Part shown: positions 6,383 through 60,756 of the stretch, one piece after another
Numbering within the stretch: the stretch's first letter is position 1
How the letters are laid out: every line of letters starts with the position of its first letter
Source of the DNA: Candidatus Kuenenia stuttgartensis
GTDB taxonomy: Bacteria > Planctomycetota > Planctomycetia > Pirellulales > UBA1268
Length of the DNA stretch: 61,497 bases
Assembly (NCBI GenBank): GCA_945891385.1
Contig: CAMDDJ010000017.1
Coordinates: 1 to 61,497 of the forward strand
Reading direction: 5' to 3'
The notes under the pieces: model-generated
The model's database searches: none
The model's input: the letters and a program-made list of their open reading frames with translations, nothing else
Told to the model about the DNA's origin: nothing
Program-made: the position numbers and the translations under genes

Positions 6383-9300
6383 GTGATTCGGCTCATGGGC
6401 TTCCTCACACTCGCGATCACACTGGCAACCTCGGCGGTCTCCGCCGCCGATGCCCCGATCAAGGTGCTGTTTCTCGGCGACAGCGGTCACCATCAGCCGG
6501 CGGCGCGGTTCGCCCAGCTCGAGCCCGTGCTTGCCGGCCGGGGCATCGAACTGGTCTACACGGAGAATCTCGCCGACCTCGACCCGGCGGTGCTGGCCGA
6601 CTACGACGCCCTGGCCGTGTTCGCCAACATCGAGTCGATTTCACCCGAGCATGAAGCGGCGATTGCCGAATATGTCCGGGGCGGCAAAGGGCTCGTGCCC
6701 TTGCACTGTGCGAGTTTCTGCTTTCAGAACTCGCCGCTCTGGATCGACATGGTCGGGGCCCAGTTCCAGAAGCACGGCGCGGGCGAGTTTTCGACCGAGA
6801 TCGTGGCGGCCGAGCATCCCGTGATGAAGGGCTTCGGTGGGTTTTCCAGCTGGGACGAAACCTACGTCCATACCAAGCACAATCCCCGCGGCAGGACCGT
6901 GCTCGAGGAGCGGGTCGAAGGGGAGCATCGGGAGCCCTGGACCTGGGTCCGGACCGAGGGCAAGGGGCGGGTCTTCTACACCGCCTGGGGCCACGACCAG
7001 CGCACCTGGGGCAATCCCGGCTTCCACAACCTCGTCGAGCGGGGCATCCGCTACGCCGCCGGCCGCGATCCTGCCGCCGCGGGGCCCTATGTCGGCCATC
7101 CCGAGATGACGACGACCCCCGCAGGACTCACGGCCTTTGAATATCAGCCGGCCAAGGTGCCGTTCTACATCCCCAAAGCGGAGTGGGGAAAGATGGGTGA
7201 GCCGATCACCGAAATGCAAACGCCACTCGAGCCTGAGGAATCACGCAGGCACGCGCTCACGCCCCGCGGCTTCACGATCGACCTGGTGGCGGCCGAGCCG
7301 CTCTTCCAGGCCAAGCCCCTGGCCTTCGCCTTCGATCACGACGGCGGGCTGTATGTGTCCGAGAGCGTCGATTACCCCAACGGGATCGTGCTCCCGGGCG
7401 AGGGCGAGGGGCACGACCGGATCATCCGGCTGGATGACACCGACGGCGACGGCACCTACGACACACGGACGGTGTTCTGCGAACCGCTCTCGATCTGCAC
7501 GAGCATGCTGGCCCACGACGGCGGCCTGATCGTCACCCAGGCTCCGCACACGCTCTATCTTAAGGACACCGACGGCGACGGCCGGGCCGACGTGAGACGG
7601 CAGCTGTTCACGGGCTGGGGCACCTACGACACCCATGCCGGCCCCAGCAACCTCACCTGGGGCCTCGACGGGCAGGTCTACGGCATCGTCGGCTACTCGG
7701 GCTTCAAAGGACGGGTCGGCGACGAGGACCTCGAGTTCAAGCAGGGATTCTTTCGCTTCAAGCCTGACGGCTCGAAGTTCGAGTTTCTCCGGAGTACCAA
7801 CAACAACTCCTGGGGCTTCGGCTTCAGCGAGGAGGGTGTGCTCTTCGGCTCGACTGCCAACGGCAACCCCAGCGAGCACATGCCGCTGGCAAACCGGGTC
7901 TACGAGCGGGTCCGAGGCTGGAACGCCTCCACGCTCGGCGGCATCTCGGGTAGCCCCGAGATGGAGGTCGCCCCGCGGAAGGGAACGCCCGACGGCAAGG
8001 CGCCCGTGCGACAGGTCGATCACCACGGCCGCTTCACCGCCGCCGCCGGCCACCGGCTCTATACGGCGCGGGCCTATCCGCCGGAATACTGGAACCGCAC
8101 GGCCTTCGTCTGCGAGCCGACCGGCCATGTCGTGGCGACGTTCGAGATTGCGCCGAGCGGCGCAGCCTTCCGCAGCCGGATGGCCTGGAGCCTCGTGGCC
8201 AGTGACGACGAATGGACCGCGCCGATCCAGGCCGACGTCGGCCCCGACGGCCAGGTCTGGGTGATCGACTGGTACAACTTCATCGTCCAGCACAATCCCA
8301 CGCCTGCCGGCTTCGAAAACGGCAAGGGCAACGCCTACGTCACGCCGCTGCGGGACAAGGTGCACGGCCGGCTGTGGCGGGTGGTGCACGACGCCACAGC
8401 AGCCACGGCCCACCGCACCACGCTGGCGGGAGCTTCGCCCGCCGAACTCGTCGCCGCCCTGGGCGATGCCAACATGTTTTGGCGGGAACGCGCCCAACGA
8501 AAGCTCGTCGATCGGGCCGCGGCTCGTCCCGACGGTGGCCGTGACGTCGTGCCGGCCCTCGTGCAGCTCGTCGCCGACACCGCGGTCGATGCGATCGGAC
8601 TCAATCCGGCCGCGATCCATGCCCTCTGGACGCTGCGGCAGCTCGGGGCCGTCGACGGGCCGGCGGCCGATCCGGCCGTGGTCGCGGTGGTCGAGCAGGC
8701 CCTCCGGCATCCGTCGGCCGGGGTGCGCATGAACGCCATCCGGGTGCTGCCACGGACAGCCGGGACCCTCAAGGCCTTTGAGGATGCGGGCCTGGCCGCC
8801 GACGCCGCCCCGCTCGTCCGGCTCTGGCTGCTCGAGTCGCTGGGTGAGTTTCCTCCGTCGGAGCAGGCGTCCGCGATCGCACTAGCCATGCTCGCGGATC
8901 CCCGAACCCTCGCCGATCCCGTGCTCGCCGACGCCGCGACGAGCGCCGCCGCCGTTCAGGCCGCCGGTGTGTTGCCCACTTTGATCTCGGGCGTGCTCTT
9001 GCAGGCCGAAGCGGAGCCGGCACCGCCCGCCAACCCAGCCTCCCCCCAGCGGCTCGCCCTGGTCGAGCGGGTGGCCGAGCATGTGGCCCGCGGCGGGGAT
9101 GGCCAGGCGGTCGCCGCGGTCGTCGCCCAGCTGCCGAAGAAAAACCCAAACACCGCCGCCGCGGCCCTCACCGGCCTGGCTCGCGGCTGGCCCAACGGCA
9201 AAGCGATCGCATTCGACGCCGAGGCGAAGGCTGCGCTCGGCACACTTGTGGCATCCCTTCCGGTGGCCGCCCAGGGGCAGTTGATCACGCTCGTGCAGCG

Positions 9301-10804
9301 GGCCGGCAGTGACGCCCTCGACGCCCAGATCGAGACGGTCACCGAGTCACTCCTGGCGGCGGTCGACGACACCGCGGCCTCCGACAAGGAGCGACTCGAG
9401 GCCGCTCGCCGGCTGATCCTGCTGCGGCCCGCCGACGCCGCCGTGGCCGACCGGCTCCTCGAGCGAATCGACGCCCGGACCGACCCCGAGTTCGCAACCG
9501 GGATCCTGTCGGCCGTGGCCCAGTCCACCGCTCCCGAGACCGCCGCGGCCGTGCTCGAAAAGGCGGTCCTGCTGCCGCCGACCGTCCGCGAGGCCGCCTA
9601 CCGCGAGGCCGTGAACAATCGCACCTGGGCTCGGGTGCTCGTCGAGCGGCTCGAGCAGGGAGCTATCCGGCTCACCGACCTCGCGCTCGTGGAGCGAAAC
9701 CGCCTCGCCGAGCACCGGGATCGCGGCCTCCGCGACCGGGCCCGCAAGCTGATCGCCGCCGGCGGGGGCCTGCCCGACGCCGACCGCCAAAAGGTGATCG
9801 ACGAGGTGCTGCCGGTGGTGCTGGCCGGAGGCGATGCCGTGCACGGCAAGGCGGTCTTCAAGGAACATTGCGGCAAGTGCCACATGCACTCCGGCGACGG
9901 CGGCAAGGTGGGCCCCGAACTCACCGGCATGTCGGTGCACCCCGCCGAGGAACTCCTGATCCACATCCTCGACCCCAACCGGTCGGTCGAGGGCAACTAC
10001 CGGGCCTACACCGTGGCCACCGACGCCGGCCACGTGGTCAACGGCCTGCTTGCCGGCGAGAGCAAAACGGCGATCGAATTGGTCGATGCCGAGGGCAAGC
10101 AGCACGTGATCCAGCGGGACGAGATCGACGAATTCGTGCCCTCGACGAATTCCCTGATGCCCGTCGGGTTCGAGAAGCAGATTCCACCCACTGGGCTGGC
10201 CGATCTGCTCGCCTTCCTCACAGCCCGCGGGAAATTCGTGCCGCTGCCGCTCGACAAGGTCGTCACCGCCTCGAGCACCAGGGGCATGTTCTACGAATCG
10301 AAGAGTGAGACCGAGCGGCTCGTGTTTCCCGACTGGGGTCCGAAGATCGTCGGCGGGATTCCCTTCGTGCTGGTCGATCCCCGGGGCGATACCGTGCCCA
10401 ACGTGATCATGCTCTACGGGCCCCACGGCTACTTGCCGCCCAAGATGCCGCGCAAGGTGTCTGTGCCGGTCGGCTCCCCGGTCAAGGCGCTCCACATCCT
10501 CGGCGGCGTGTCGGGCTGGGGCTGGCCCCACTCGGCCAAGGGCAGCGAGTCGATGCTCGTGCGGATCACCTACGACGACGAGACCCAGGAGGTCCACCCG
10601 CTCGTCAACGGCGAGCACCTCTCCGACTACATCGCCCGCAATGACGTGCCCGGCAGTGAGTTCGCCTTCGACCTCGGCGGCCGGCAACTCCGCCACGTGG
10701 TCGTGGTGCCGCACCAGGCCAAGAGCATCAAGACGCTTGAACTCGCCAAGGGCAGCGACGACACGGCGCCGATCGTGATGGCGATCACAGCTGAAATGCC
10801 GTAG
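6383..10804 (+). CDS. ThuA / PVC-type dehydrogenase / HEAT / cytochrome c fusion
   Basis: A 1473-residue secreted protein starting at GTG 6383 with AAGGAG six bases upstream. Order of parts: signal peptide (1-22, ending SAVSAADA); ThuA domain (about 26-230, with VLFLGDSGHHQ and GRVFYTAWGHD); PVC-type membrane-bound dehydrogenase propeller (about 289-670); HEAT-like alpha-helical region (about 680-1130); class I haem-binding domain (about 1148-1285) with Cys1163-Gly-Lys-Cys1166-His1167 and probable axial Met1183; and a C-terminal beta-rich domain (about 1290-1473) I cannot name. This architecture is typical of planctomycete and verrucomicrobial proteins thought to oxidise carbohydrates outside the cytoplasm and pass electrons to c-type cytochromes. 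The substrate is unknown. Its 3-prime end overlaps ackA by 20 bases, tail to tail. Confidence 0.9.
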   Translation: MIRLMGFLTLAITLATSAVSAADAPIKVLFLGDSGHHQPAARFAQLEPVLAGRGIELVYTENLADLDPAVLADYDALAVFANIESISPEHEAAIAEYVRGGKGLVPLHCASFCFQNSPLWIDMVGAQFQKHGAGEFSTEIVAAEHPVMKGFGGFSSWDETYVHTKHNPRGRTVLEERVEGEHREPWTWVRTEGKGRVFYTAWGHDQRTWGNPGFHNLVERGIRYAAGRDPAAAGPYVGHPEMTTTPAGLTAFEYQPAKVPFYIPKAEWGKMGEPITEMQTPLEPEESRRHALTPRGFTIDLVAAEPLFQAKPLAFAFDHDGGLYVSESVDYPNGIVLPGEGEGHDRIIRLDDTDGDGTYDTRTVFCEPLSICTSMLAHDGGLIVTQAPHTLYLKDTDGDGRADVRRQLFTGWGTYDTHAGPSNLTWGLDGQVYGIVGYSGFKGRVGDEDLEFKQGFFRFKPDGSKFEFLRSTNNNSWGFGFSEEGVLFGSTANGNPSEHMPLANRVYERVRGWNASTLGGISGSPEMEVAPRKGTPDGKAPVRQVDHHGRFTAAAGHRLYTARAYPPEYWNRTAFVCEPTGHVVATFEIAPSGAAFRSRMAWSLVASDDEWTAPIQADVGPDGQVWVIDWYNFIVQHNPTPAGFENGKGNAYVTPLRDKVHGRLWRVVHDATAATAHRTTLAGASPAELVAALGDANMFWRERAQRKLVDRAAARPDGGRDVVPALVQLVADTAVDAIGLNPAAIHALWTLRQLGAVDGPAADPAVVAVVEQALRHPSAGVRMNAIRVLPRTAGTLKAFEDAGLAADAAPLVRLWLLESLGEFPPSEQASAIALAMLADPRTLADPVLADAATSAAAVQAAGVLPTLISGVLLQAEAEPAPPANPASPQRLALVERVAEHVARGGDGQAVAAVVAQLPKKNPNTAAAALTGLARGWPNGKAIAFDAEAKAALGTLVASLPVAAQGQLITLVQRAGSDALDAQIETVTESLLAAVDDTAASDKERLEAARRLILLRPADAAVADRLLERIDARTDPEFATGILSAVAQSTAPETAAAVLEKAVLLPPTVREAAYREAVNNRTWARVLVERLEQGAIRLTDLALVERNRLAEHRDRGLRDRARKLIAAGGGLPDADRQKVIDEVLPVVLAGGDAVHGKAVFKEHCGKCHMHSGDGGKVGPELTGMSVHPAEELLIHILDPNRSVEGNYRAYTVATDAGHVVNGLLAGESKTAIELVDAEGKQHVIQRDEIDEFVPSTNSLMPVGFEKQIPPTGLADLLAFLTARGKFVPLPLDKVVTASSTRGMFYESKSETERLVFPDWGPKIVGGIPFVLVDPRGDTVPNVIMLYGPHGYLPPKMPRKVSVPVGSPVKALHILGGVSGWGWPHSAKGSESMLVRITYDDETQEVHPLVNGEHLSDYIARNDVPGSEFAFDLGGRQLRHVVVVPHQAKSIKTLELAKGSDDTAPIVMAITAEMP

Positions 10805-12923: not shown

Positions 12924-15792
<2,869 letters not shown>

Positions 15793-15816: not shown

Positions 15817-16935
15817 TCAGTCGGCCGCCAAGGGCATGATCACATAGCCGTAGCCGTCGTCGGTCAGACAGACACAGGCGCTCTGCGGATCGGTGATCTC
15901 GATCGTCACCGTCGTGCCACCGTCGAGCACCCGGAGCACGTCGGCCATGAACCGAGGATCGAGTTTGATCCGTACCGTCTCCCCGGCATGATCGATCGGC
16001 AATTCGACGCGGCTGTCACCGCTCTCGGCAGACCTGCCCGAGAGCACGAGACACCCGGGTTCGAACGAAAAATCGACCCCTTTGGACTGTTCGCTCGTCA
16101 CGATCGCAGCCTGCCGCACCGCCGCCAACAGCGGACCTGCCACGAGCTGCACACGCCGCGCCTCCGGTCGCTCGGGAAAGACATCTCGCCAGCGGGGAAA
16201 CCTGCCTTCAACCAGACGGGCCGAGATCGTCGTTCCCGCGGTGCGGACCAGAATCTCGCTGGCATCGGCCCGCATGGCCAGCTGAACGGGGACATCGGCA
16301 GCACCAAGACAGCGTTCCACCAGTTGCATCGCCCGGGCGGGAACGATCGGCGTCACGGCGGCCGCCTCGCCACCCTGGATCTGGCACGGGCCCTCCATCT
16401 TCGCCAGCCGCCGCCCGTCCGTGCCTACGGCAATCACACGGTCGCCCGCGAGTTCCACCAGCACACCTCCCAAGGCATACCGACTCGACTCGTTGTCCGT
16501 TGCGAACACGGTTCGGCGAATCAACTCCCGCATCAGCGGTGTCGAGATCTCGAAGCAGGGACCGGAGGGAAAACCCGCCACTGAAGGGAATTCGAGGGGA
16601 TCCTCCACGGGCAGCCGAAACTCGCTCCTGGGCGCCTTGACCACGGCCGCGGTGCCGTCGCTGTGGATTTCGAACACCGTCCCAGCCGCCGACTCCCGCA
16701 GAATGGCCAAGAGCCGTCCACTCGGGAGGAGGACCGAACCCGGTGCCTGGACCTCGACTCCGGCGAGATCGGCCCGGATTCCGACTTCCAGATCAGTCGC
16801 CGAAATCACCACCCCGTTGTCACCAGCTTCGAACTTGATGTTCGAGAGAACTGGCTTGGGAGAGCGAGCGGGAACGACGGCTCCGGCAGTCTGCACGGCG
16901 GCCAGAAGCGGTTCCTTCGGACAGCGGATTTTCAT
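15817..16935 (-). CDS. dnaN: DNA polymerase III beta sliding clamp
   Basis: A 372-residue three-domain ring clamp that tethers DNA polymerase III. It starts MKIRCPKEPLLAAVQTA, carries SNIKFEA and ATDLEVGIRADL in domain 1, AVGTDGRRLA in domain 2, and ends YVIMPLAAD, the typical clamp C-terminus. A TTG at 16947 is also in frame, but the ATG at 16935 gives the usual MKI start and is chosen. No strong ribosome binding site is visible. It is separated from the upstream dnaA-like gene by a 351-base gap and precedes the DUF721 gene. Confidence 0.95.
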   Translation of the reverse strand: MKIRCPKEPLLAAVQTAGAVVPARSPKPVLSNIKFEAGDNGVVISATDLEVGIRADLAGVEVQAPGSVLLPSGRLLAILRESAAGTVFEIHSDGTAAVVKAPRSEFRLPVEDPLEFPSVAGFPSGPCFEISTPLMRELIRRTVFATDNESSRYALGGVLVELAGDRVIAVGTDGRRLAKMEGPCQIQGGEAAAVTPIVPARAMQLVERCLGAADVPVQLAMRADASEILVRTAGTTISARLVEGRFPRWRDVFPERPEARRVQLVAGPLLAAVRQAAIVTSEQSKGVDFSFEPGCLVLSGRSAESGDSRVELPIDHAGETVRIKLDPRFMADVLRVLDGGTTVTIEITDPQSACVCLTDDGYGYVIMPLAAD

Positions 16936-17286
16936 GCGGGTGGTCAAATCCAGACGGACTGCTGATCGAGCCCGAAAACGAGAGGCCTCGAGAATGGAAA
17001 ATGTACCTGAAAAACGGGTTGTCTGAAACGCCCTCCATGCCTGCTGCTTCTCTTATTTTTTTGGAAATTGATAGGAAGAAGATAGAAGAAAGAAGGGGTT
17101 GAACGAGCCCTAGGAGGAGAGCCCGCTCGCCGGGTGCGACAATTGAGGCCCGGGACCTGGGCAGCCATCCGATCGAAGCGAAAATCCAGCGGCAGGTATG
17201 TCTCGCCCAGCGGGATTCGGGCTGGGGACAACCTGACGACTTCCTGTTGGCAAACACGTTGAACGACGATGGAACTCAGGGATGTG
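16936..17286. other. dnaA-dnaN gap, candidate origin/unwinding region
   Basis: A 351-base gap without a credible gene between the dnaA-like stop and the dnaN start, the position that often carries an origin. The tract 17051-17095 is 33 of 45 A or T, very unusual here, and is split into pyrimidine-rich (TCTTATTTTTTT) and purine-rich (GAAGAAGATAGAAGAAAG) halves. The purine half resembles a DnaA-trio array. No perfect DnaA box (TTATCCACA type) is visible. The nearest matches are AATGGAAAA at 16993-17001 and TGGGGACAA at 17223-17231, each two mismatches from a box. It may equally be the dnaN promoter region. Confidence 0.4.
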
Positions 17287-18348
17287 TCAGTCGTCCGCGG
17301 GCCGATCGTCCTGTTGGCGGCATGGTCTGGCTGCGCCGGCAACGGGTCGGGTGGCGGTGGGTGACGATGTCGGTTCGCTCGCTCGCCGCTCGCCGACGAT
17401 TCGTCGACGTTCCGTTGACAGGGTTGCAGCCGGGATGGAACGGAGCTGCTTCCGAGGCGGGTGCCGTTGAAGGGTCTGACAGATGGCCTCCGCATCGGCA
17501 GCTATCACAGGGTCGGTGCCGATGCGAGCGAACGTGGTCCGCGTGCCATGGAGGGCCGTGGTGTGATCCCTGTTGCCACAGGCCTGACCGATGCTCGAAA
17601 AACTCCGGTCGGTCAACTGACGCGCGAGATACATCGCCAGCCCTCTCGCATGGCAAACAGTCCGGCTCCGAGAGGGCCCGATCAGGATCTCAATGGCGAT
17701 TCCGTAGTGCCGAGCCGTGGCAGCGAAGATTTGCTCCAAACTCGGTTGACGGCCCAAACTCGACCGAAGAGCCGCGGCGGTTCCCGTGGCTGGTTGGGCG
17801 GCTGCGTGGCCCGCAGGAACCGAGCGGTGCTCCTTCTGGGAGAGCGGGATGACGAGTCCACCGGTGAGCCGCCCGGCGAGGTCGGCGGAAAGCTGGCCGG
17901 TCGCGGGATGCTTGTCCAGGGTGAGGCAGAATCGGGTTCCGTGGGTCGTGGCGGCATCAAAAAGGTGACGAAAACTCGATTGCAGCAGAGGGCCGCCGAT
18001 CGCTTCCACGTGCTCGATCACCACCATGTCCGCGGCGATCATTCGCTCCCGCAGCCGTGCCCAACGGTTCGCCGCGATGGCCTGCTGAAGTTCCGCACCG
18101 AAGTGGCTGCCATCTCGCAGAAAGACCGTCAATCCGCAGGCAGTGGCCCAGGCTGAGAGTTCGTGGACCAGTTGCGAACGGCCACCGGATGTGACCAGAC
18201 ACAGGGGGCTCGAGGATGCCGACGATGCGGGATCGAGCAGGGCCTGGAAGGCCGGCCGAATGGGCGCGACCCGGTTCTCGTTCGGGTCGACAAGCCCGGA
18301 ACCAAGGGAGCCGGAGGCACGATGGGCTGATTTGGAGGGAGCCGCCAT
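17287..18348 (-). CDS. dnaA: Degenerate DnaA homologue lacking ATPase motifs
   Basis: A 353-residue DnaA-like protein, about 100 shorter than usual. Domain I is absent. Residues about 19-172 align with the AAA+ core (LVDPNENRVAP like the usual VVGPSNRLA box), but the P-loop reads LVTSGGRSQLV with no GKT, and Walker B reads VVIEHVEAI instead of IDD. Sensor I reads TLD and an arginine of the box VII type remains at 160. The lid, with its sensor II arginine, is largely missing and replaced by about 30 Ala/Gly/Pro-rich residues. Domain IV (about 202-298) is well kept, including SRSRTVCHARGLAMYLAR and the signature GNRDHTTALHGTR. It should bind DNA but probably not ATP. Start ATG 18348; GTG 18360 is possible. 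The 40-residue tail is unmatched. Confidence 0.8.
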   Translation of the reverse strand: MAAPSKSAHRASGSLGSGLVDPNENRVAPIRPAFQALLDPASSASSSPLCLVTSGGRSQLVHELSAWATACGLTVFLRDGSHFGAELQQAIAANRWARLRERMIAADMVVIEHVEAIGGPLLQSSFRHLFDAATTHGTRFCLTLDKHPATGQLSADLAGRLTGGLVIPLSQKEHRSVPAGHAAAQPATGTAAALRSSLGRQPSLEQIFAATARHYGIAIEILIGPSRSRTVCHARGLAMYLARQLTDRSFSSIGQACGNRDHTTALHGTRTTFARIGTDPVIAADAEAICQTLQRHPPRKQLRSIPAATLSTERRRIVGERRASEPTSSPTATRPVAGAARPCRQQDDRPADD

Positions 18349-18481
18349 GTCGTGGTCCACGGATTCGGGGACAGGCCGTCGAGTGATTCGGCTTGTCCGT
18401 GGGGCATCCGTGCCCGATCGTCATCGTCCACCCGCCGCTTCTCGCCGCAGCCTACCAGCGGTGCCCAGGGCCGAGAAGCGT

Positions 18482-19666
18482 TCAACGACGCAGCCGGGAA
18501 ATCACCGCGGCAAGGCGTTCAATCGCGATGGCTACATCGTCGGAGGTGGTGGTGCGGCCGAAACTAGCCCTCACGACGGCGGTCCGCATCGCGGGATCGA
18601 CCCCGAGGGCAACCAGGACGGCCGGTGGCTCCCCCGAACCGCTGGAACAGGCGGTGCCGGTCGAGAGACAGACGCCCGCGAGATCGGCGGCGAGTACGAG
18701 CATTTGCCGATCCACGCCGAGGATTCCAAGCGCCGACACCTGCGGGGCTCGGGAAGCCGTGGCCCCGATCACCCGCGTTTCATATCCCGCGGCTCCGGCG
18801 GCTGCGACCATGCCCGCCTCGAAGCGGGATCGCAGGGTCGCCACTCGCACCGCCTCGGCGGCTTGATCCATGACGGCCAATTCGAACGCCCTGGCAAACC
18901 CTGCAGCCAGTGCGACCGCCTCGGTGCCGCCCCGCAGCCCGAGTTCCTGTGGCCCGGGGATCAGGGGACTGATTCGGGTGGTTCCGCGGATGATCAGCCC
19001 GCCGATCCCGCGTGGCCCGCCAAACTTGTGGGCCGCCAGCGTGAGCGTCGCGAAAGGCGACTCGGCGAACGACAGGGGCAGCCAGGCAGCGGCCTGTGTG
19101 GCGTCGGCATGGATCAGAAGGGCCGGCTCGGCCTGGGCGAGCCGGCCGATCGCCGCCTGGTCTTCGAGCAGGCCGGTCTGTCCGCAGACGGTCGTGACGG
19201 TGACGAGTCTGGGTTCGGAAGGGTCGCCCAACAGTGGCCCGATCGCCGGCGTCTTCAGGCACCCGCTCGGGGTGAGGGGAATCTCGGCGATCCTCCAGCC
19301 ACGGCAGGCCAGTTCTTGAGCGGCCAGCCGGAGGCCGGGATGGTCGCGGGCGGAGGTGGCGACGATTCCCGATCGCTCACCAGCCATACCGAGAACCGCC
19401 ATCCGGTTGGCTTCCGTGGCTCCGCTCGTGAATACGAGCCGATCGCGGTCTGAAGCCGTCGATCGACTCCCTGCGGCCGCGAGGATTCGTTCCCGCGATT
19501 CCTCGAGCACCTGCTTCGCCAGGCGGCCTGCCGCATGCGAGCTGGACGGGTTTGCGAAGGCCGCAGTCGTCGCCTCCGCCATCGCCTCCACCACCTCAGG
19601 CCGTACCGGCGTGGCCGCGGCATGGTCGAGGTAGATGGAGTCCGCGACGAAGGGAGGCCGAGACAT
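18482..19666 (-). CDS. Cysteine desulfurase (NifS/IscS family)
   Basis: A 394-residue PLP enzyme removing sulfur from cysteine for Fe-S clusters or tRNA thiolation. Motifs: YLDHAAATPV at the N-terminus, TSGATEANRMAVLG, the PLP lysine in TLAAHKFGGPRGIG, LGLRGGTEAVALAAGFA, and the persulfide cysteine in STGTACSSGSGEPP. The normal substrate-pocket histidine motif is altered (SARDHPGLR rather than EHxAV), common in group II-like members. It lies 19 bases upstream-strand of the aminotransferase stop, and both are read toward the dnaA-like gene. The tRNA thiolase MnmA encoded at 55388 needs such a sulfur donor, but no specific link is shown. Confidence 0.87.
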   Translation of the reverse strand: MSRPPFVADSIYLDHAAATPVRPEVVEAMAEATTAAFANPSSSHAAGRLAKQVLEESRERILAAAGSRSTASDRDRLVFTSGATEANRMAVLGMAGERSGIVATSARDHPGLRLAAQELACRGWRIAEIPLTPSGCLKTPAIGPLLGDPSEPRLVTVTTVCGQTGLLEDQAAIGRLAQAEPALLIHADATQAAAWLPLSFAESPFATLTLAAHKFGGPRGIGGLIIRGTTRISPLIPGPQELGLRGGTEAVALAAGFARAFELAVMDQAAEAVRVATLRSRFEAGMVAAAGAAGYETRVIGATASRAPQVSALGILGVDRQMLVLAADLAGVCLSTGTACSSGSGEPPAVLVALGVDPAMRTAVVRASFGRTTTSDDVAIAIERLAAVISRLRR

Positions 19667-31435: not shown

Positions 31436-34400
31436 ATGGCAGATTTCGACTCGGCGACGCTCGCGGGCGATTCCTCGACCGATACTCCCGCCGACACTCG
31501 GCCGGCGGGCCGGACGGCGCTCGAAATCCAGCCGACATTTTGTCCGGTCGAGGCCGCGAGCCCCTTCGACACCACCGAGTGGGAGTTGCGGACGGCCGCG
31601 ATCAAGGGTGAAGACGGCAAGGTGCTGTTCGAGCAGCCGGCCTGCGAGATCCCGGCTGCCTGGAGCCAGTTGGCCACGAACGTCGTCGTGAGCAAGTACT
31701 TCTACGGCGAAATCCACACGCCCGAGCGGGAGCATTCCGTCAAGCAACTCGTCCATCGCGTCGCTCGCACGATCGCCGACTGGGGCATCGCCGACGGCTA
31801 CTTCAAGAGCAGGCAGGACGGCGAAAACTTCTACCGCGACCTGTCCTGGCTCTGCGTCCACCAGCATGGCGCCTTCAATTCGCCGGTCTGGTTCAACGTC
31901 GGCCTCTATCATCAATACGGTGTCAAGGGCGCTCCCTGCAATTGGCGGTGGGACGAGGCCAAGCGGGATGTGGCGATGCCCGACAATCCCTATGAATACC
32001 CACAGGGCAGCGCCTGTTTCATTCAGAGCGTGCGCGACAACATGGAAGACATCATGGACCTCGCTCGCAGCGAGGCGATGCTCTTCAAGTTTGGCTCGGG
32101 AACCGGCACCGACCTCTCCACGCTCCGAAGTCAGCGGGAGAAGCTCGCCGGCGGCGGCAAGCCCTCCGGTCCGCTTTCCTTCATGCGGGTGTACGACCAG
32201 GTGGCCGCGGTCGTGAAGAGCGGCGGCAAGACCCGTCGCGCCGCGAAGATGCAATCGCTCAAGGTGCATCATCCAGACATCATGGAATTCATCGAGTGCA
32301 AGGCCAAGGAGGAGAAGAAGGCCCGCGTGCTGATTGAAAAGGGCGGCTACGACTCCAACTTCAACGGCGAAGCCTACAGCTCGATCCTGTTCCAAAATGC
32401 CAACCTCTCGGTGCGACTGAGCGACGAGTTCATGGAGGCGGCCGACCGGGATGACACCTGGACGACCCGCTGGGTCACCGATCCCTCCAAGGCCGGGCCG
32501 AGCTTCAAGGCCCGGGAGGTCCTCGGGCGGATGGCGGAGTGCGCCTGGCAGTGCGGCGATCCCGGCGTGCAGTACGACACCACGATCAACCGGTGGCACA
32601 CCTGTCCGAATTCGGGGCGGATCAACGCCTCGAATCCGTGCAGCGAATACATGTTCCTCGACGACACCGCCTGCAATTTGGCGAGCATCAATCTGATGAA
32701 GTTCCGCCGCCCGGATGGCAGCTTTGACGTCGAACGGTTCGCCGCCGCCTGTCGGATTTTCTTCGTCGCGCAGGAAATCCTCGTTGACCACGCGAGCTAT
32801 CCCACCCCGCGGATCGCCCGCAATAGCCATCTCTACCGGCCCCTCGGCCTCGGCTACTCCAATCTGGGAAGCCTCCTGATGGCTGATGGCCTGGCCTACG
32901 ACAGCGATGCCGGCCGGGGGCTGTGCGGCGCGATCACCGCCATCCTGCACGGAACGGCCAACCGGACGAGCGCGGAACTGGCCGCCGCCGTCGGGCCCTT
33001 CGAGGGTTTTGCGGCGAATCGGGAGCCAATGCTCCGCGTGATGCAGATGCATCGCGACGCCGTCGATCACATCGACGCGGCCTGCCCGAGGTATTTGCAC
33101 GACGCCGCCCGGGACGTCTGGGACGAGGTTCTCGCCCGCGGGCGGCGGAGCGGCTTCCGCAATGCCCAGGCGACGGTTCTCGCGCCCACCGGCACGATTT
33201 CGTTCCTCATGGATTGCGATACGACGGGGATCGAACCCGACATCGCGCTCGTGAAATACAAGCAACTCGCCGGCGGCGGCATGCTCAAAATCGTGAACCA
33301 GACGGTGCCGCTGGCCCTGCGGACCCTGGGCTACGACGAGCCGGCCGTCGAGGGAATTCTCGCCTTCGTCGACAAGAACGACACCATCGAAGGGGCGCCC
33401 GGTCTCAAGCGGGACCATCTGGCGGTCTTCGATTGTGCCTTCAAGCCGCGGCTCGGCGAGCGCAGCATCGCCTGGGAGGCACACGTCAGGATGATGGCCG
33501 CCGCCCAGCCCTTCCTGTCGGGGGCCATCTCCAAGACGGTCAACATGCCCCGGGAGACGACGCCGGCGGACATCGCCGGCGCTTACCACGAGGGCTGGAG
33601 GCTCGGGCTTAAGGCGTTGGCGATCTACCGCGATGGTTCGAAGGAAAGCCAGCCGCTCAACACCTCGACTGAGGCCGACAAAGTCGCTTCGAAGGTGACC
33701 GCGGCCCCGAGGCGGGAGCGGCTGCCGGATACCCGCCGCAGCGTGACCCACAAGTTCAGCGTCGGAGGGCACGAGGGCTATATCACCGTCGGACTCTATG
33801 ACGACGGCCGTCCCGGTGAGTTGTTCATCACGATGGCCAAGGAAGGCAGCACGATCGGCGGATTGATGGACGCCTTTGGCACGGCCGTGTCGATGAGCCT
33901 TCAATACGGTGTGCCGCTCGAGGTGTATGTGAAGAAGTTTTCCCACACGCGATTCGAGCCGTGGGGATACACCAAGAACCCCGACATTCCGGTCGCCAAG
34001 AGTCTCGTGGACTACCTGTTTCGGTGGATGGGAACGGAATTCATTCCGGGTTACCGCGAGGCCAATCGACCAGCCGGGCATGATGCTGGTGGGGAGGCCG
34101 GTGCGGGAGACGATGCGGAAAGTGAGCGGAAGCCCGCCGCCACGATGGCGAGCGGGCTGGCTGATGGCCAAGGAAAGGCCCAGGGCAAGGGCGAGGTGAA
34201 CGGCAGTCGGGGTCGGCATCCCGCCGGGAAGGGGAGGCCGACGTCGGCGGCGAGTACGACGTGGTCGGGCGGGTCGCTCAAGGCCGGCGATGCTTCGGCA
34301 GCGTTGCTCGAGCGGGCTGGGCTGAAAATGGCCGCCCACCCCGACGCCTCACCCGACGACCGACAGAACCAGTTCGCGAAGTTCCAGATCGACGCTCCCG

Positions 34401-34486
34401 CATGTGACAATTGCGGGGCGATCACCGTGCGGAATGGAAACTGCTACCTCTGCCACAACTGCGGCAACAGCATGGGCTGCAGTTGA
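31436..34486 (+). CDS. nrdJ: Adenosylcobalamin-dependent ribonucleotide reductase
   Basis: A 1016-residue class II reductase that makes deoxyribonucleotides using B12 to create the active-site thiyl radical, so it works with or without oxygen. Family segments include SPVWFNVGLYHQYGV, YPQGSACFIQSV, FGSGTGTDLS, NPCSEYMFLDDTACNLASIN and LAPTGTISFLMDCDTTGIEPD. The C-terminus has the cysteine-rich tail CDNCGAITVRNGNCYLCHNC and GCS. Between about residues 880 and 960 lies a Gly/Ala/Lys-rich low-complexity linker. The ATG at 31436 has AGGAGG nine bases upstream (31421-31426); an in-frame start at 31355 falls in the promoter region. Two candidate promoters precede it. Confidence 0.95.
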   Translation: MADFDSATLAGDSSTDTPADTRPAGRTALEIQPTFCPVEAASPFDTTEWELRTAAIKGEDGKVLFEQPACEIPAAWSQLATNVVVSKYFYGEIHTPEREHSVKQLVHRVARTIADWGIADGYFKSRQDGENFYRDLSWLCVHQHGAFNSPVWFNVGLYHQYGVKGAPCNWRWDEAKRDVAMPDNPYEYPQGSACFIQSVRDNMEDIMDLARSEAMLFKFGSGTGTDLSTLRSQREKLAGGGKPSGPLSFMRVYDQVAAVVKSGGKTRRAAKMQSLKVHHPDIMEFIECKAKEEKKARVLIEKGGYDSNFNGEAYSSILFQNANLSVRLSDEFMEAADRDDTWTTRWVTDPSKAGPSFKAREVLGRMAECAWQCGDPGVQYDTTINRWHTCPNSGRINASNPCSEYMFLDDTACNLASINLMKFRRPDGSFDVERFAAACRIFFVAQEILVDHASYPTPRIARNSHLYRPLGLGYSNLGSLLMADGLAYDSDAGRGLCGAITAILHGTANRTSAELAAAVGPFEGFAANREPMLRVMQMHRDAVDHIDAACPRYLHDAARDVWDEVLARGRRSGFRNAQATVLAPTGTISFLMDCDTTGIEPDIALVKYKQLAGGGMLKIVNQTVPLALRTLGYDEPAVEGILAFVDKNDTIEGAPGLKRDHLAVFDCAFKPRLGERSIAWEAHVRMMAAAQPFLSGAISKTVNMPRETTPADIAGAYHEGWRLGLKALAIYRDGSKESQPLNTSTEADKVASKVTAAPRRERLPDTRRSVTHKFSVGGHEGYITVGLYDDGRPGELFITMAKEGSTIGGLMDAFGTAVSMSLQYGVPLEVYVKKFSHTRFEPWGYTKNPDIPVAKSLVDYLFRWMGTEFIPGYREANRPAGHDAGGEAGAGDDAESERKPAATMASGLADGQGKAQGKGEVNGSRGRHPAGKGRPTSAASTTWSGGSLKAGDASAALLERAGLKMAAHPDASPDDRQNQFAKFQIDAPACDNCGAITVRNGNCYLCHNCGNSMGCS

Positions 34487-57255: not shown

Positions 57256-60200
57256 ATGGACGAAGGCAGCTCACCCCCCGGATCGGTCGCCGGCGACCTA
57301 TCGGTGTCCGCTGCTGCGTCGGTCGGGCCGCTCTCCTTTTCCGGCCTGACCGATTTCATGGGTCGCGGGGCCGGGAGCGACGCGGCCAGCAGCGACGAAC
57401 TGCCTCCCGGCACGCTGGTGGGAGACGCCCGGATCGTGACATTGCTCGGGGCCGGGGGAATGGGTCGGGTCTACGAGGCCGTTCAGGAGTCGACCCAACG
57501 GACGGTCGCGGTCAAGGTGATCCGGCCGGGCGTCGTGTCGGCTGTGGCTGCGCGGCGGCTGGCCCACGAAGCCCAGATTCTCGGTCGCCTCTCCCATCCC
57601 GGCATCGCCCGGATCTATTCCGCCGGCGTGGCCCGGATCGGCGGGAGTGACCTCCCCTTCTTCGTGATGGAGTATGTGGACGAACCCCGGTCGCTGACGG
57701 CCTTCGCCGCCGCGGGAAACCTATCCCGCCGGGAACGGGTGGAACTCTTCCGCCAGGTCTGCCTGGCGGTGGCCCACGGGCATGAGCGGGGCGTGGTGCA
57801 CCGCGACTTGAAGCCCGGCAACATCCTCGTCGATCGGGCCGGCCAGCCGAAGGTCATCGACTTCGGCGTGGCGCGGTGCACGGCGGAGGAAGGCCAACTG
57901 ACGACGATGCACACGGGCATGGGCGAACTCCTGGGTACGGCCCAGTACATGGCCCCTGAGCAGCTGTTTGGCACCGCCGACGACATCGACGCCAGGGCCG
58001 ACGTGTATGCCCTGGGACTCGTGCTCTACGAACTCCTCACCGGAGATTTTCCCTACGAGGTCCGCGGCCGCCCCATTTACGAGGTGGCCCGGGTCGTGCG
58101 GGAGGTCGAGCCGCGGTCGCTCTCGACGCTGGATCGCGATCTGCGGGGCGACCTGACGGCCATCGTCGCCACCTGCCTCGATAAGGAACGAGGCCGCCGC
58201 TATCCCTCGGCTGCCGCGGTCGCCGCCGACCTCGGCCGGCACCTGCGCGGCGAGGCGATCGTGGCCCGTCCGCCGGGACTTCTCGAATCGTTGGCTCGCC
58301 TCGCGAGCCGACACAAGGCTGCCACCCTGGGGCTGGCGGCCGTGCTGACCACGCTCGTGGTGGCGGCGGTGGGCATGTCGCTGCTCGCGGTGCGGGCCGA
58401 GCGGCAGCGGGCGCTGGCGACGGCCTCGGCCGAACTCGCTTCGCGGCAGCTCTACCGGGCCAACGTTCGCTCGCTCCAGTCGTTCATCGAGTCGGACAAT
58501 CCCCGGGCCGCCCGGGCGATTCTCCGCGAAACGAGGGCTCTGGCGGGCGACTCGCTGCCGCTCGAACTCCGCTGCTTGGCGGCCGATCTCGACGAGGCGC
58601 TGGTGGTGCTCGAGCCGACGGGCGACCCGGTGGTGGAGGTGGCGTTTTCGGCCGACGGCCGCCGGCTCGAGACGACGTCGGCCGAACCTCTTTCTTGGCG
58701 ACCGTCCACCGAAGCTGCCGAACTGCTCTCCTGGCGGGCCGAGTTCTTCCGGCGAATTCCGAGCCGGAGGCGGGTCTCCTATGCAGTGACCGCCGGTGAG
58801 GGTCTTCGGCGGCTTGGGCCGGCGACAGGCGATCCGCTCGACGCTGCCGGCTCATCAGGGCGGGTGCTCGATCGGGCGGTGGACGGTAGTCGGCTGGAAC
58901 TCGACGCCGATGGCTACGTGATCCTGCAGCGGGCCGACGAGACCGCCCCGACTCGTCTGGGAGAGCCCCGGGGCAGGCTCGCGGGAGCGGCTTTTTCGCC
59001 CGAGGCCGCGCGAGTAGCGGTACTCGGCGTGGACGGCCGGCTCGATCTCTGGGATGCCGACGGCGGCCGGTTGATCGGAAGTCTGGATTATCCTGAGCCT
59101 TGCACGGATTTCACGTTCAGCCCCGACGGTTCCCGTGTGGCAACCCTGAGGCTCATCGCGGGAGCACGGATTCAGATCCGACTTTTTGAGTCGGAAAAAG
59201 GGCGGCGGCTCTCGGAGCTTTTCGTTCCGCGGGAGCGGAGTGTCGACACATTCATCCTGGCGTTCAGCCATGATGGTGGCCAGTTGGCAACTGCGGCTTG
59301 GACCGGCGGGATCACCATCTGGTCGAGCGACACCGGAGAGCCTGCACAGACGCTCGCAGGACACTCCACCCTGGTTACCGCACTGGCCTGGTCGGCCGAC
59401 GGTCGCCGGCTCGCCAGCGGGGATCAGAGTGGTCGGATCTGCATCTGGAATCTCGCCACCGGCAGGCTGGAGCGGCAGTGTATCGGCCATTCCAGCGACA
59501 TCCTCTCGCTGGCCTTCTCCCCGGAAGGCAGCCGCCTCGTCAGTGGCGGCGTCGATCATTCGGTCCGGATGTGGGAGACCACAGCGTCACGTCCTCTCGC
59601 CGCGGTGCCGCTCGCGGGGGATCCGCTCGTCGTGACGTTTGATCCAGCCGGTCAGGAACTGGCTGTTGCGTCCCCGGATGGCATCATCGAAGTCTGGAGC
59701 ACCACGCTGGTTGAGCGGAGGCACTGCCTGACGGTGCCAGGCACCGTGAACGACCTCGCCTATGCACCGGATGGCGGACTCTTGGCTGCCGCGACCTACC
59801 GTTCCGATGGGACAGGGGAGGTCGTGGTCTGGGATGCGGCGACCGGCGCGGAGCGAGGCCGGCTCTCCGGGATCATGGGCGGCTCCAGCGTCGCTGGCGC
59901 CGTGGCCGCCCGATTCAACGACGACGCTTCGCTGCTTGTGACGACCTCTGGCGATGGTTCGGTGACGGTCTGGTCACTGGATGGGTCGAGTCGGCTTTGG
60001 GAGGCGAAGGTCGAGCAGTTTCAATCGCTGGCCAAGCCAAAGGCCCTGTTCTGCCTGGGTGGCGAGCTGGTCGCCCATAAGCAGCCCTATCTGTTCGATG
60101 CTCGCACTGGGAAGAAGCGGCAGGAGTTGGTGCGGGGACAGATCTGGAGCCAGGCCGTGAGCTTCGATGGCCGGCTCTTGGCCCGCGGCATGGCCGCAGG

Positions 60201-60756
60201 AAGGACATATCTCATCAAATGTACCGGCGAGCGTTCCGACGGACGCCGCGAGGGGTACGACGTTTCGGAGCGCACGCCGTATCTGCTGGGGCACACCGAG
60301 CCGGTGCTGGCGATCGACTTCGATGCGACAGGCACGTGGCTGGCCACCGCCTCGGCCGACGGCACGGCCCGGATCTGGAACGTGGCCGATCGGACCGAAG
60401 TCGCAGTGCTTTCTGGACACGAAGGCCCCGTTGCACGGGTCGCGTTCACGCCCGGAGGCCGCCGCGTCGTGACGAGTTCCGTTGACGGGACGGCACGCAT
60501 TTGGGACGCGGCGTTCGGGTTCGAACTCTGCCAGTTTTCCAGCCCGGGCGATCGCCCGGCAACGACGGTCCTCAGTCCGGACGGAAGGGTGCTCGTGATT
60601 CCCTCCCGGGATGCCCAGGGGCCGTTTCTCCGGCTGCTCGGGCTTACGAACGCGGACGTCACTTCCGCCCGGCAGATTCAGCTTCAGCGAGATGCTGCGG
60701 CCGCCCCCGCGGCAGGCACTGCGACTGCCGCGCGGACGATCGTGCGCCCCGAGTAG
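57256..60756 (+). CDS. Serine/threonine protein kinase with WD40 repeats
   Basis: A 1166-residue transmembrane kinase. The kinase domain (about 58-330) has the glycine loop LLGAGGMGRVYEAVQ, ATP-binding Lys87 in VAVKVIRP, catalytic Asp184 in HRDLKPGNIL, DFG in VIDFGVARC and YMAPEQLFG. One membrane helix (about 356-378, LGLAAVLTTLVVAAVGMSLL) follows, then a coiled-coil-like linker. From about residue 450 there are WD40 repeats, with blades such as LVTALAWSADGRRLASGDQS and VLAIDFDATGTWLATASADG. This kinase-helix-propeller layout is common in planctomycetes. The propeller lies outside the cytoplasm and may bind a ligand or partner. GAGGGAC precedes the ATG. Confidence 0.93.
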   Translation: MDEGSSPPGSVAGDLSVSAAASVGPLSFSGLTDFMGRGAGSDAASSDELPPGTLVGDARIVTLLGAGGMGRVYEAVQESTQRTVAVKVIRPGVVSAVAARRLAHEAQILGRLSHPGIARIYSAGVARIGGSDLPFFVMEYVDEPRSLTAFAAAGNLSRRERVELFRQVCLAVAHGHERGVVHRDLKPGNILVDRAGQPKVIDFGVARCTAEEGQLTTMHTGMGELLGTAQYMAPEQLFGTADDIDARADVYALGLVLYELLTGDFPYEVRGRPIYEVARVVREVEPRSLSTLDRDLRGDLTAIVATCLDKERGRRYPSAAAVAADLGRHLRGEAIVARPPGLLESLARLASRHKAATLGLAAVLTTLVVAAVGMSLLAVRAERQRALATASAELASRQLYRANVRSLQSFIESDNPRAARAILRETRALAGDSLPLELRCLAADLDEALVVLEPTGDPVVEVAFSADGRRLETTSAEPLSWRPSTEAAELLSWRAEFFRRIPSRRRVSYAVTAGEGLRRLGPATGDPLDAAGSSGRVLDRAVDGSRLELDADGYVILQRADETAPTRLGEPRGRLAGAAFSPEAARVAVLGVDGRLDLWDADGGRLIGSLDYPEPCTDFTFSPDGSRVATLRLIAGARIQIRLFESEKGRRLSELFVPRERSVDTFILAFSHDGGQLATAAWTGGITIWSSDTGEPAQTLAGHSTLVTALAWSADGRRLASGDQSGRICIWNLATGRLERQCIGHSSDILSLAFSPEGSRLVSGGVDHSVRMWETTASRPLAAVPLAGDPLVVTFDPAGQELAVASPDGIIEVWSTTLVERRHCLTVPGTVNDLAYAPDGGLLAAATYRSDGTGEVVVWDAATGAERGRLSGIMGGSSVAGAVAARFNDDASLLVTTSGDGSVTVWSLDGSSRLWEAKVEQFQSLAKPKALFCLGGELVAHKQPYLFDARTGKKRQELVRGQIWSQAVSFDGRLLARGMAAGRTYLIKCTGERSDGRREGYDVSERTPYLLGHTEPVLAIDFDATGTWLATASADGTARIWNVADRTEVAVLSGHEGPVARVAFTPGGRRVVTSSVDGTARIWDAAFGFELCQFSSPGDRPATTVLSPDGRVLVIPSRDAQGPFLRLLGLTNADVTSARQIQLQRDAAAAPAAGTATAARTIVRPE

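Follow-up and report, generated by a model that had tools for sequence, protein, structure and literature searches.

The dnaA gene next to dnaN in the stretch of DNA analysed here (61,497 nucleotides, hereafter the window) encodes a protein, DnaA1, which, to judge from its sequence, is without what ATP binding or hydrolysis of its own needs and without domain I, and in which domain IV is retained together with the arginine finger. dnaA1 is a working gene under relaxed but real purifying selection, and the same genome carries a second, complete DnaA, DnaA2, which evolves like a housekeeping initiator. The reading preferred here, which we regard as plausible though a little short of probable, is that DnaA1 is an origin-linked DnaA that has ceded the role of initiator ATPase to DnaA2 and persists as an accessory or edge subunit blind to ATP. 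The coordinates of the relevant features are collected in Table 1; the rank names from genus to phylum are used throughout as the kinship labels of the genome set.

Table 1. Features of the dnaA1 region and, in the last row, the second dnaA of the same genome. Positions are those of the window except in the last row.
Feature	Position	Strand	Basis or remark
gyrB	12924..15404	minus	profile match
dciA (helicase operator)	15454..15792	minus	profile match
dnaN	15817..16947	minus	profile match
dnaA1-dnaN intergenic region, putative oriC	16948..17286		skew, AT-rich element, array
AT-rich element, candidate unwinding element	17048..17087		75% A+T over 40 bp; window 32% A+T
Degenerate 11-bp-period array, CAACA-N6-CGTCA-N6-CCCCA	17223..17249	minus	weak in this genome; period significant in relatives
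dnaA1, origin-linked DnaA paralogue, predicted to be ATP-blind	17287-18360	minus	GTG start, 357 aa
dnaA1, alternative start	17287-18348	minus	ATG at 18348, 353 aa
Domain IV, residues 205-276, DnaA-box-binding helix-turn-helix with GNRDHTTALHGTR	17533..17748	minus	Pfam, selection, predicted structure
AAA+ remnant, residues 45-180	17821..18228	minus	profile match, alignment, predicted structure
Arg164, arginine finger (E. coli Arg285)	17869..17871	minus	invariant in 25/25 family DnaA1 sequences
Degenerate Walker B, residues 113-121, VVIEHVEAI	17998..18024	minus	alignment
Degenerate Walker A, residues 55-65, LVTSGGRSQLV, lysine gone	18166..18198	minus	alignment
Class-V aminotransferase	18482..19666	minus	directly upstream of dnaA1
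DnaA2, 515 aa, unlinked to dnaA1	G000:C1:109155-110699		all ATPase motifs

The identification of the gene as a dnaA homologue upstream of dnaN and gyrB, made in an initial annotation of this DNA, holds: the open reading frame is real, and profile matches place dnaN, dciA (which had gone unmentioned) and gyrB after it, in that order, on the minus strand. Domain IV, which had been called intact, matches the Pfam model Bac_DnaA_C (PF08299) with 76.3 bits against a cut-off of 31.5 and contains the RDHTT signature. The Pfam Bac_DnaA ATPase model yields only 23.8 bits, from a match to its second half, and NCBIfam TIGR00362 (DnaA) yields 98.5 bits, which does not reach its cut-off of 343.9. The Hda model is absent among the four families listed for DnaA1 at E <= 10 in the NCBIfam profile search, and the presence of domain IV sets the protein apart from Hda, which would be an AAA+ domain without it. 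The aminotransferase on the other side of dnaA1 is presumably cysteine-desulfurase-like. Elsewhere in the window, all on the plus strand, lie a single 1166-residue frame in which a protein kinase domain is followed by WD40 repeats (57256-60756), a 1469-residue protein combining ThuA with DUF7133 (6395-10804) and a class II B12-dependent ribonucleotide reductase (31436-34486).

The losses that the initial annotation described can be read from the alignment of DnaA1 with DnaA2 of the same genome, and those of the lysine and of sensor II recur throughout the genus. At Walker A, LVIHGPSGVGKTHLL in DnaA2 stands against LCLVTSGG--RSQLV in DnaA1, and the P-loop lysine (Lys178; E. coli numbering is used for this and the residues below) occurs in none of the 14 readable genus sequences, one row of the 15 being masked by N. 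At Walker B, LLVIDD stands against MVVIEH, in which a single acid of the pair remains, and the sensor II stretch of the lid is a gap, as it is in 15/15 genus sequences, with Arg334 accordingly in 0/15. Since the losses of the lysine and of sensor II are common to the genus, an assembly or sequencing error is ruled out. The N-terminal domain is absent as well, only about 44 residues preceding the AAA remnant and no model matching there; the DnaA_N model has zero matches in the whole genome, which is weak evidence alone because it misses DnaA2 too. What had been overlooked is the arginine finger, Arg164, which is intact and corresponds to an Arg285 found in 15/15 genus sequences. Arg399, Arg432, His434, Thr435 and Thr436 are likewise each present in 15/15, and Asp433 in 12/15.

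The proposal that the role of this gene had moved to a second dnaA called for a canonical copy elsewhere in the genome; it is supported, in that an intact DnaA is there. The genome (3.77 Mb in 150 contigs, 93.9% complete) contains exactly one other DnaA domain IV, that of DnaA2, whose ATPase is complete (P-loop GPSGVGKT, VIDD, sensor II RELLGAV) and whose alignment to TIGR00362, at 297.5 bits and thus under the curated cut-off of 343.9, starts from model position 4 and therefore includes domain I. Across the class (55 DnaA2 rows, four identical pairs included) Lys178 and Arg334 are found in all 55 and Arg285 in 54. Asp433, a base-reading residue of the DnaA recognition helix, is found in 0/55, with Ser, Asn or Thr in its place in 50, and Thr435 has become Ser in 49. 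The residue pattern of DnaA2, with the ATPase kept and Asp433 gone, is thus complementary to that of DnaA1; not every family of the class fits this scheme, because the DnaA1 of family f22 lacks Asp433 too (0/5). The loss of Arg245 does not discriminate between the paralogues, since this residue is Ala in 47 of the 55 DnaA2 rows. A separate feature of DnaA2 is a charge reversal at the protomer interface, where the Box VII residue Arg281 has given way to Glu or Asp in 53/55.

The decay of DnaA1 is graded across 65 DnaA1 rows, from order to family to genus. In the other families of the order Lys178 is present in 23/23 sequences, Arg285 in 20/23 and Arg334 in only 7/23. In the family (25 rows) the Arg334 position is gapped in 24 and the lid is gone or nearly so; Arg285, Arg432, His434 and Thr436 are retained in all 25, Thr435 in 23, Asp433 in 22 and Arg399 in 21. 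Within the AAA remnant of these 25 rows 5 of the 134 columns are conserved at 90% or more, and three of the five belong to the R-L-x-x-G motif of the finger (Arg285, Leu at 286 and Gly289); Val211 and Arg245, which bind single-stranded DNA, are mostly not kept. In class family f21 (L102, L104, L106, L108, L110 and L112) the DnaA1 decays in the opposite direction, the ATPase being kept (Lys178 6/6, Arg334 5/6) and the DNA-reading residues lost (His434 and Thr435 both 0/6), a pattern that may resemble an Hda in the making.

Selection on the two domains of DnaA1 was estimated separately (NG86 with a codon bootstrap) for six chosen close pairs of DnaA1 and five pairs of DnaA2, frames of the latter being recovered at 15 of 17 loci. 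For domain IV of DnaA1 the ratio dN/dS is 0.17, 0.14, 0.04, 0.24, 0.10 and 0.31, with upper bounds of 0.18-0.62, and for the AAA remnant it is 0.44, 0.40, 0.11, 0.36, 0.33 and 0.43, with an upper bound below 0.7 in five of the six pairs and of 1.01 in the sixth. The corresponding values for DnaA2 are 0.03-0.11 (AAA) and 0.01-0.12 (domain IV). The two parts of DnaA1 share one open frame in 15/15 genus members, one of these frames crossing an N. The degenerate form is thus shared by the DnaA1 sequences of the genus and under purifying selection, and it is very likely that DnaA1 is functional wherever it is present.

The distribution of constraint within DnaA1 bears on what that function might be. 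Domain IV is the most constrained part, and it is also the best-defined part of an AlphaFold2 model built from 21 sequences (mean pLDDT 73, pTM 0.45), with pLDDT above 90 there, block means of 81-93 over residues 51-170, and uncertainty in the linker and at both ends. The best Foldseek match of the model in the PDB is the origin-unwinding complex of B. subtilis DnaA (E 1e-8); the arrangement of the two domains is unreliable, since the whole-chain TM-score is low (0.3) and the rmsd high (14 A), and domain IV alone matches solved DnaA-DNA complexes at 0.8 A. These observations, together with the loss of nearly all functional residues from the AAA remnant and the ease with which lineages lose dnaA1, would suit a DNA-bound regulator (a roadblock, titrator or autorepressor at the origin and the dnaA1-dnaN promoters) in which domain IV does the work, the AAA remnant is passive or a dimerising scaffold, and DnaA2 is not contacted. 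Such a regulator is the strongest rival and still, in our judgement, doubtful: it leaves unexplained why the finger motif, invariant in 25/25 family sequences, should be the best-kept part of the AAA remnant, and why that remnant should be under purifying selection at all.

A gene in terminal decay, with no function that matters and persisting either fortuitously or because of its promoter or of DNA close to the origin, would account for the absence of dnaA1 from 12 of the 37 family genomes, for its extreme motif loss and for an evolution much faster than that of dnaN or gyrB (a comparison made on stop-to-stop frames that include untranslated leaders). This explanation is improbable, being largely contradicted by the dN/dS of domain IV, whose upper bounds stay well under 1 in 6/6 pairs, by the unbroken frame and by the invariance of the finger and the recognition helix. 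A pseudogene in the strict sense is ruled out by the same frame and the same purifying selection. The description of dnaA1 as a decaying gene therefore stands in part: it is decaying, and dispensable in several lineages from which it is missing, and it is not a pseudogene where it survives.

Which of the two paralogues acts as the initiator can be approached through their distribution. At least one DnaA domain IV is found in 59 of 60 genomes, the source genome counted. In the family (37 drafts, 51-97% complete) DnaA1 is present in 24 genomes, 15/22 in the genus and 9/15 outside it, and each of the 12 genomes without it has a recognisable dnaN locus, at which, in 7 of the 12, the class-V aminotransferase known from upstream of dnaA1 in the window directly precedes dnaN; G019 (85% complete) yields no dnaA and no dnaN. 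An absent dnaA1 could in principle sit on a missing contig, since the genomes are drafts. DnaA2 is present in 20/22 genus genomes (partially in G004; not in G010, which is 51% complete, or G019), including all six that lack DnaA1; in the six non-genus family genomes without DnaA1 the remaining DnaA was read in G029, where the ATPase is intact, and judged by frame length alone in the other five. Mapped on the DnaA2 tree of 22 labelled genomes, the presence and absence of DnaA1 requires four changes (3-5 in bootstraps), of which at least two are forced. Since DnaA1 is thus missing from 12/37 family genomes while DnaA2 stays, it is highly probable that DnaA2 is the main initiator.

Beyond the family, the remaining genomes of the order have two DnaA copies in 23/23 cases, one by a weak partial match, and the short copy precedes dnaN in 21 of the 23. 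A class sample of 60 genomes has two copies in 50 and one in 10, and a phylum sample of 49 has two copies in 32, one in 14, four in 1 and none in 2; in other classes the DnaA adjoining dnaN is canonical in 9/9 loci. In the tree the 52 DnaA1 rows are split off by a branch with support 99 and the 55 DnaA2 rows by another with support 91. Because the DnaA1 branches are long, the tree is silent on which paralogue is ancestral, and the argument for ancestry from the position of dnaA1 next to dnaN is only suggestive. An alignment of 20 general DnaA sequences (A2) was drawn from 23 picked among 80 loci of many phyla in a scan of contigs for DnaA matches. Two loci have unusual layouts: in G028 (L061) dnaA1 is inverted relative to dnaN, and the draft G033 (L070, L071), possibly a mixed bin, contains dnaA1 twice, with a separate dnaN-dciA-gyrB next to either copy.

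Two further explanations can be weighed against this distribution. An Hda-like inactivator, whose finger would stimulate ATP hydrolysis by DnaA2, fits the retained finger, the weak matches of the DnaA1 model to Hda structures and the presence in 55/55 DnaA2 rows of the sensor II Arg334, a residue important for hydrolysis according to PMC5742627; it is quite unlikely, given that DnaA1, unlike Hda, has retained and constrained domain IV, and that the repeated loss of dnaA1 would remove the off-switch. Initiation by DnaA1 alone without ATP, with DnaA2 serving something else, has the location at the likely origin and the activity of DnaA-ADP on a modified E. coli oriC (PMC6727663, available part) on its side, and is the least credible explanation, the non-ATP initiator suggested earlier being disfavoured by the 12/37 family genomes without DnaA1, by the strongly constrained DnaA2 found in all six genus genomes of that kind, and by the missing domain I for helicase recruitment.

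The gap between dnaA1 and dnaN looks like an origin. The cumulative GC-skew minimum of the window lies at 16830, just inside dnaN, and the local skew minimum is no more than 500 bp from the middle of the gap in 16/22 family loci versus 8/28 loci of other families; in the one-contig relative G041, sampled at 20 places, the GC skew is too weak to place the origin. In 43/50 loci the 40-mer richest in A+T begins 202-463 bp beyond dnaA1. Classical DnaA boxes with at most one mismatch number 5 in the window against 5.5 expected, none of them near dnaA1. The first position of a contig is no evidence for an origin, because a planctomycete chromosome has been rotated to start at dnaA (PMC13190842, available part). 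That DnaA1 binds origin DNA is probable.

The region also contains a periodic array. The shuffles used for the AT-rich, period, PWM and phased-box tests keep base content only. A relaxed NRACA-like unit recurs with an 11-bp period in 20 pairs versus 0.8 in shuffled sequence over 20 regions (the genus plus G029), and in 18 pairs versus 0.8 over 34 other regions. At loci with DnaA1, the array often ends on its dnaN side in a canonical DnaA box that keeps the phase, as in L038 (CAACA-N6-CGACA-N6-CAACA-N6-GAACA-CG-TTATCCACA). The in-phase box is found in 22/34 regions outside the genus (shuffle 1.7) and in 9/13 DnaA1-bearing regions within it (0.8), versus 2/7 DnaA1-less regions (0.5). The array and box of the window itself are poor, and the canonical box lies about 100 bp or more away from the AT-rich element. 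The 13 are those of the 15 genus DnaA1 regions that remain without L059 (N run) and L057 (dnaN on another contig), and the 7 are those of the 12 DnaA1-less loci with the aminotransferase beside dnaN. Not in the set of 34 are L052, whose frames overlap, L061, whose copy is inverted, L067 and L131, whose gaps are very long, and L127, through an oversight; L045, L072, L113, L115, L123 and the six f21 loci, whose stretches contain no dnaN, are likewise outside it.

The link between DnaA1 and the canonical box is statistically weak. The contrast of 9/13 with 2/7 is not significant (one-sided Fisher p = 0.10), a test of best-box mismatches between DnaA1-bearing and DnaA1-less regions gives p = 0.054, and a PWM covering the unit together with the terminal box, for which the 34 non-genus loci served as training set, converged on a mixture of the two and does not separate the groups (p = 0.76). 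Terminal units counted by eye, post hoc, give 12/13 versus 1/7 (p = 0.001); the phased-box pattern was written down after the regions had been seen, so that the contrasts are post hoc, and they rest on few independent losses. A strict NRACA pair is present in 7/7 DnaA1-less and only 2/13 DnaA1-bearing genus regions. A genome-wide search for NRACA triples in 12 genomes gave no origin triple in 9, and dnaN-proximal arrays in G003, G011 and G018 besides simple repeats and scattered sites; its reversed control also matched in G009, G015 and G018. The phased box and the NRACA pair also occur on the opposite strand, in 15 and 11 of the 34 non-genus regions respectively (for example L036, L038 and L039), suggesting what may be a two-sided origin.

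The terminal box of these arrays points toward the AT-rich side, as does the box of E. coli oriC known as R1. According to a review of E. coli DnaA (PMC5742627), a protomer touches its neighbour's ATP through Arg285; Arg334 matters for hydrolysis, and initiation complexes can do without it; and unwinding is fully sustained when the DnaA at the R1 box carries ADP, since the nucleotide of that protomer lies at the outer edge. An edge-only protomer would need domain IV, the finger and little else, which is what DnaA1 keeps, and the edge-subunit model is built on this match. DnaA2 would bind the NRACA units of the array, and DnaA1 would bind the single canonical box at the unwinding-element end, as an end protomer whose own nucleotide is irrelevant and whose finger would engage the ATP of the adjacent DnaA2; DnaA1 would be lost in lineages where DnaA2 itself can occupy the last site. 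A contact with DnaA2 through the finger is possible and is put forward tentatively. In three Gram-negative species, according to PMC8287927, DnaA achieves strand separation with ADP, for which the finger is still required; the same paper gives the finger a stabilising part in the AAA+ fold in cis, so that its conservation may be structural. Taken as a whole, the most detailed version of this model is rather unlikely: a split initiator in this bacterial class, in which DnaA2 would supply ATP, helicase recruitment and a filament on a new NRACA code, DnaA1, ATP-blind in some lineages, would read the old canonical box and close the filament by its finger, the two codes would share one 11-bp register, and the last site would be recoded as DnaA1 is lost.

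Textbook accounts assign bacterial initiation to one ATP-switched protein. If the paralogue pair is as proposed, it would be a natural dissection of the initiator, with DnaA2 as the ATPase without Asp433 and the DnaA1 of the window's family as the classic DNA reader with the finger, and it would allow direct tests of the need of the orisome for ATP and of how an origin changes its recognition code. A warning for annotation also follows, in that the dnaA adjoining dnaN is here probably not the main initiator. No description of the pair was found in the open literature on dnaA in planctomycetes, Pirellulales and Rhodopirellula or on dnaA paralogues.

Several known systems share part of this arrangement. 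The delta-prime subunit of the clamp loader is an AAA+ subunit whose own ATP site does not work and which lends an arginine finger in trans; unlike DnaA1, it binds no DNA box and belongs to a different complex. Hda (HdaA) is, like DnaA1, a DnaA-derived AAA+ paralogue with an arginine finger, but it has no domain IV and binds nucleotide, whereas in DnaA1 domain IV is present and a nucleotide site cannot be recognised. Bacterial DnaA, as in E. coli and B. subtilis, shares with DnaA1 the fold of domain IV, the DNA-reading residues, the place before dnaN and the finger, and differs in having the Walker motifs, sensor II, lid and domain I that DnaA1 lacks and in having no second complete DnaA beside it in the genome. 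Chlamydiae provide another case of PVC genomes with multiple dnaA genes, where, in the available part of PMC4989314, a DnaA1 is conserved across the PVC group, a DnaA3 is confined to Chlamydiae, and neither paralogue is described as having lost its ATPase, unlike the DnaA1 considered here. A further likeness is to DnaA-ADP at R1 of E. coli (PMC5742627), which resembles the proposed end protomer in that its nucleotide is irrelevant and its box is directed toward the unwinding element; in E. coli a different state of the one DnaA plays this part, whereas here the position would be filled by the product of a separate, dedicated gene.
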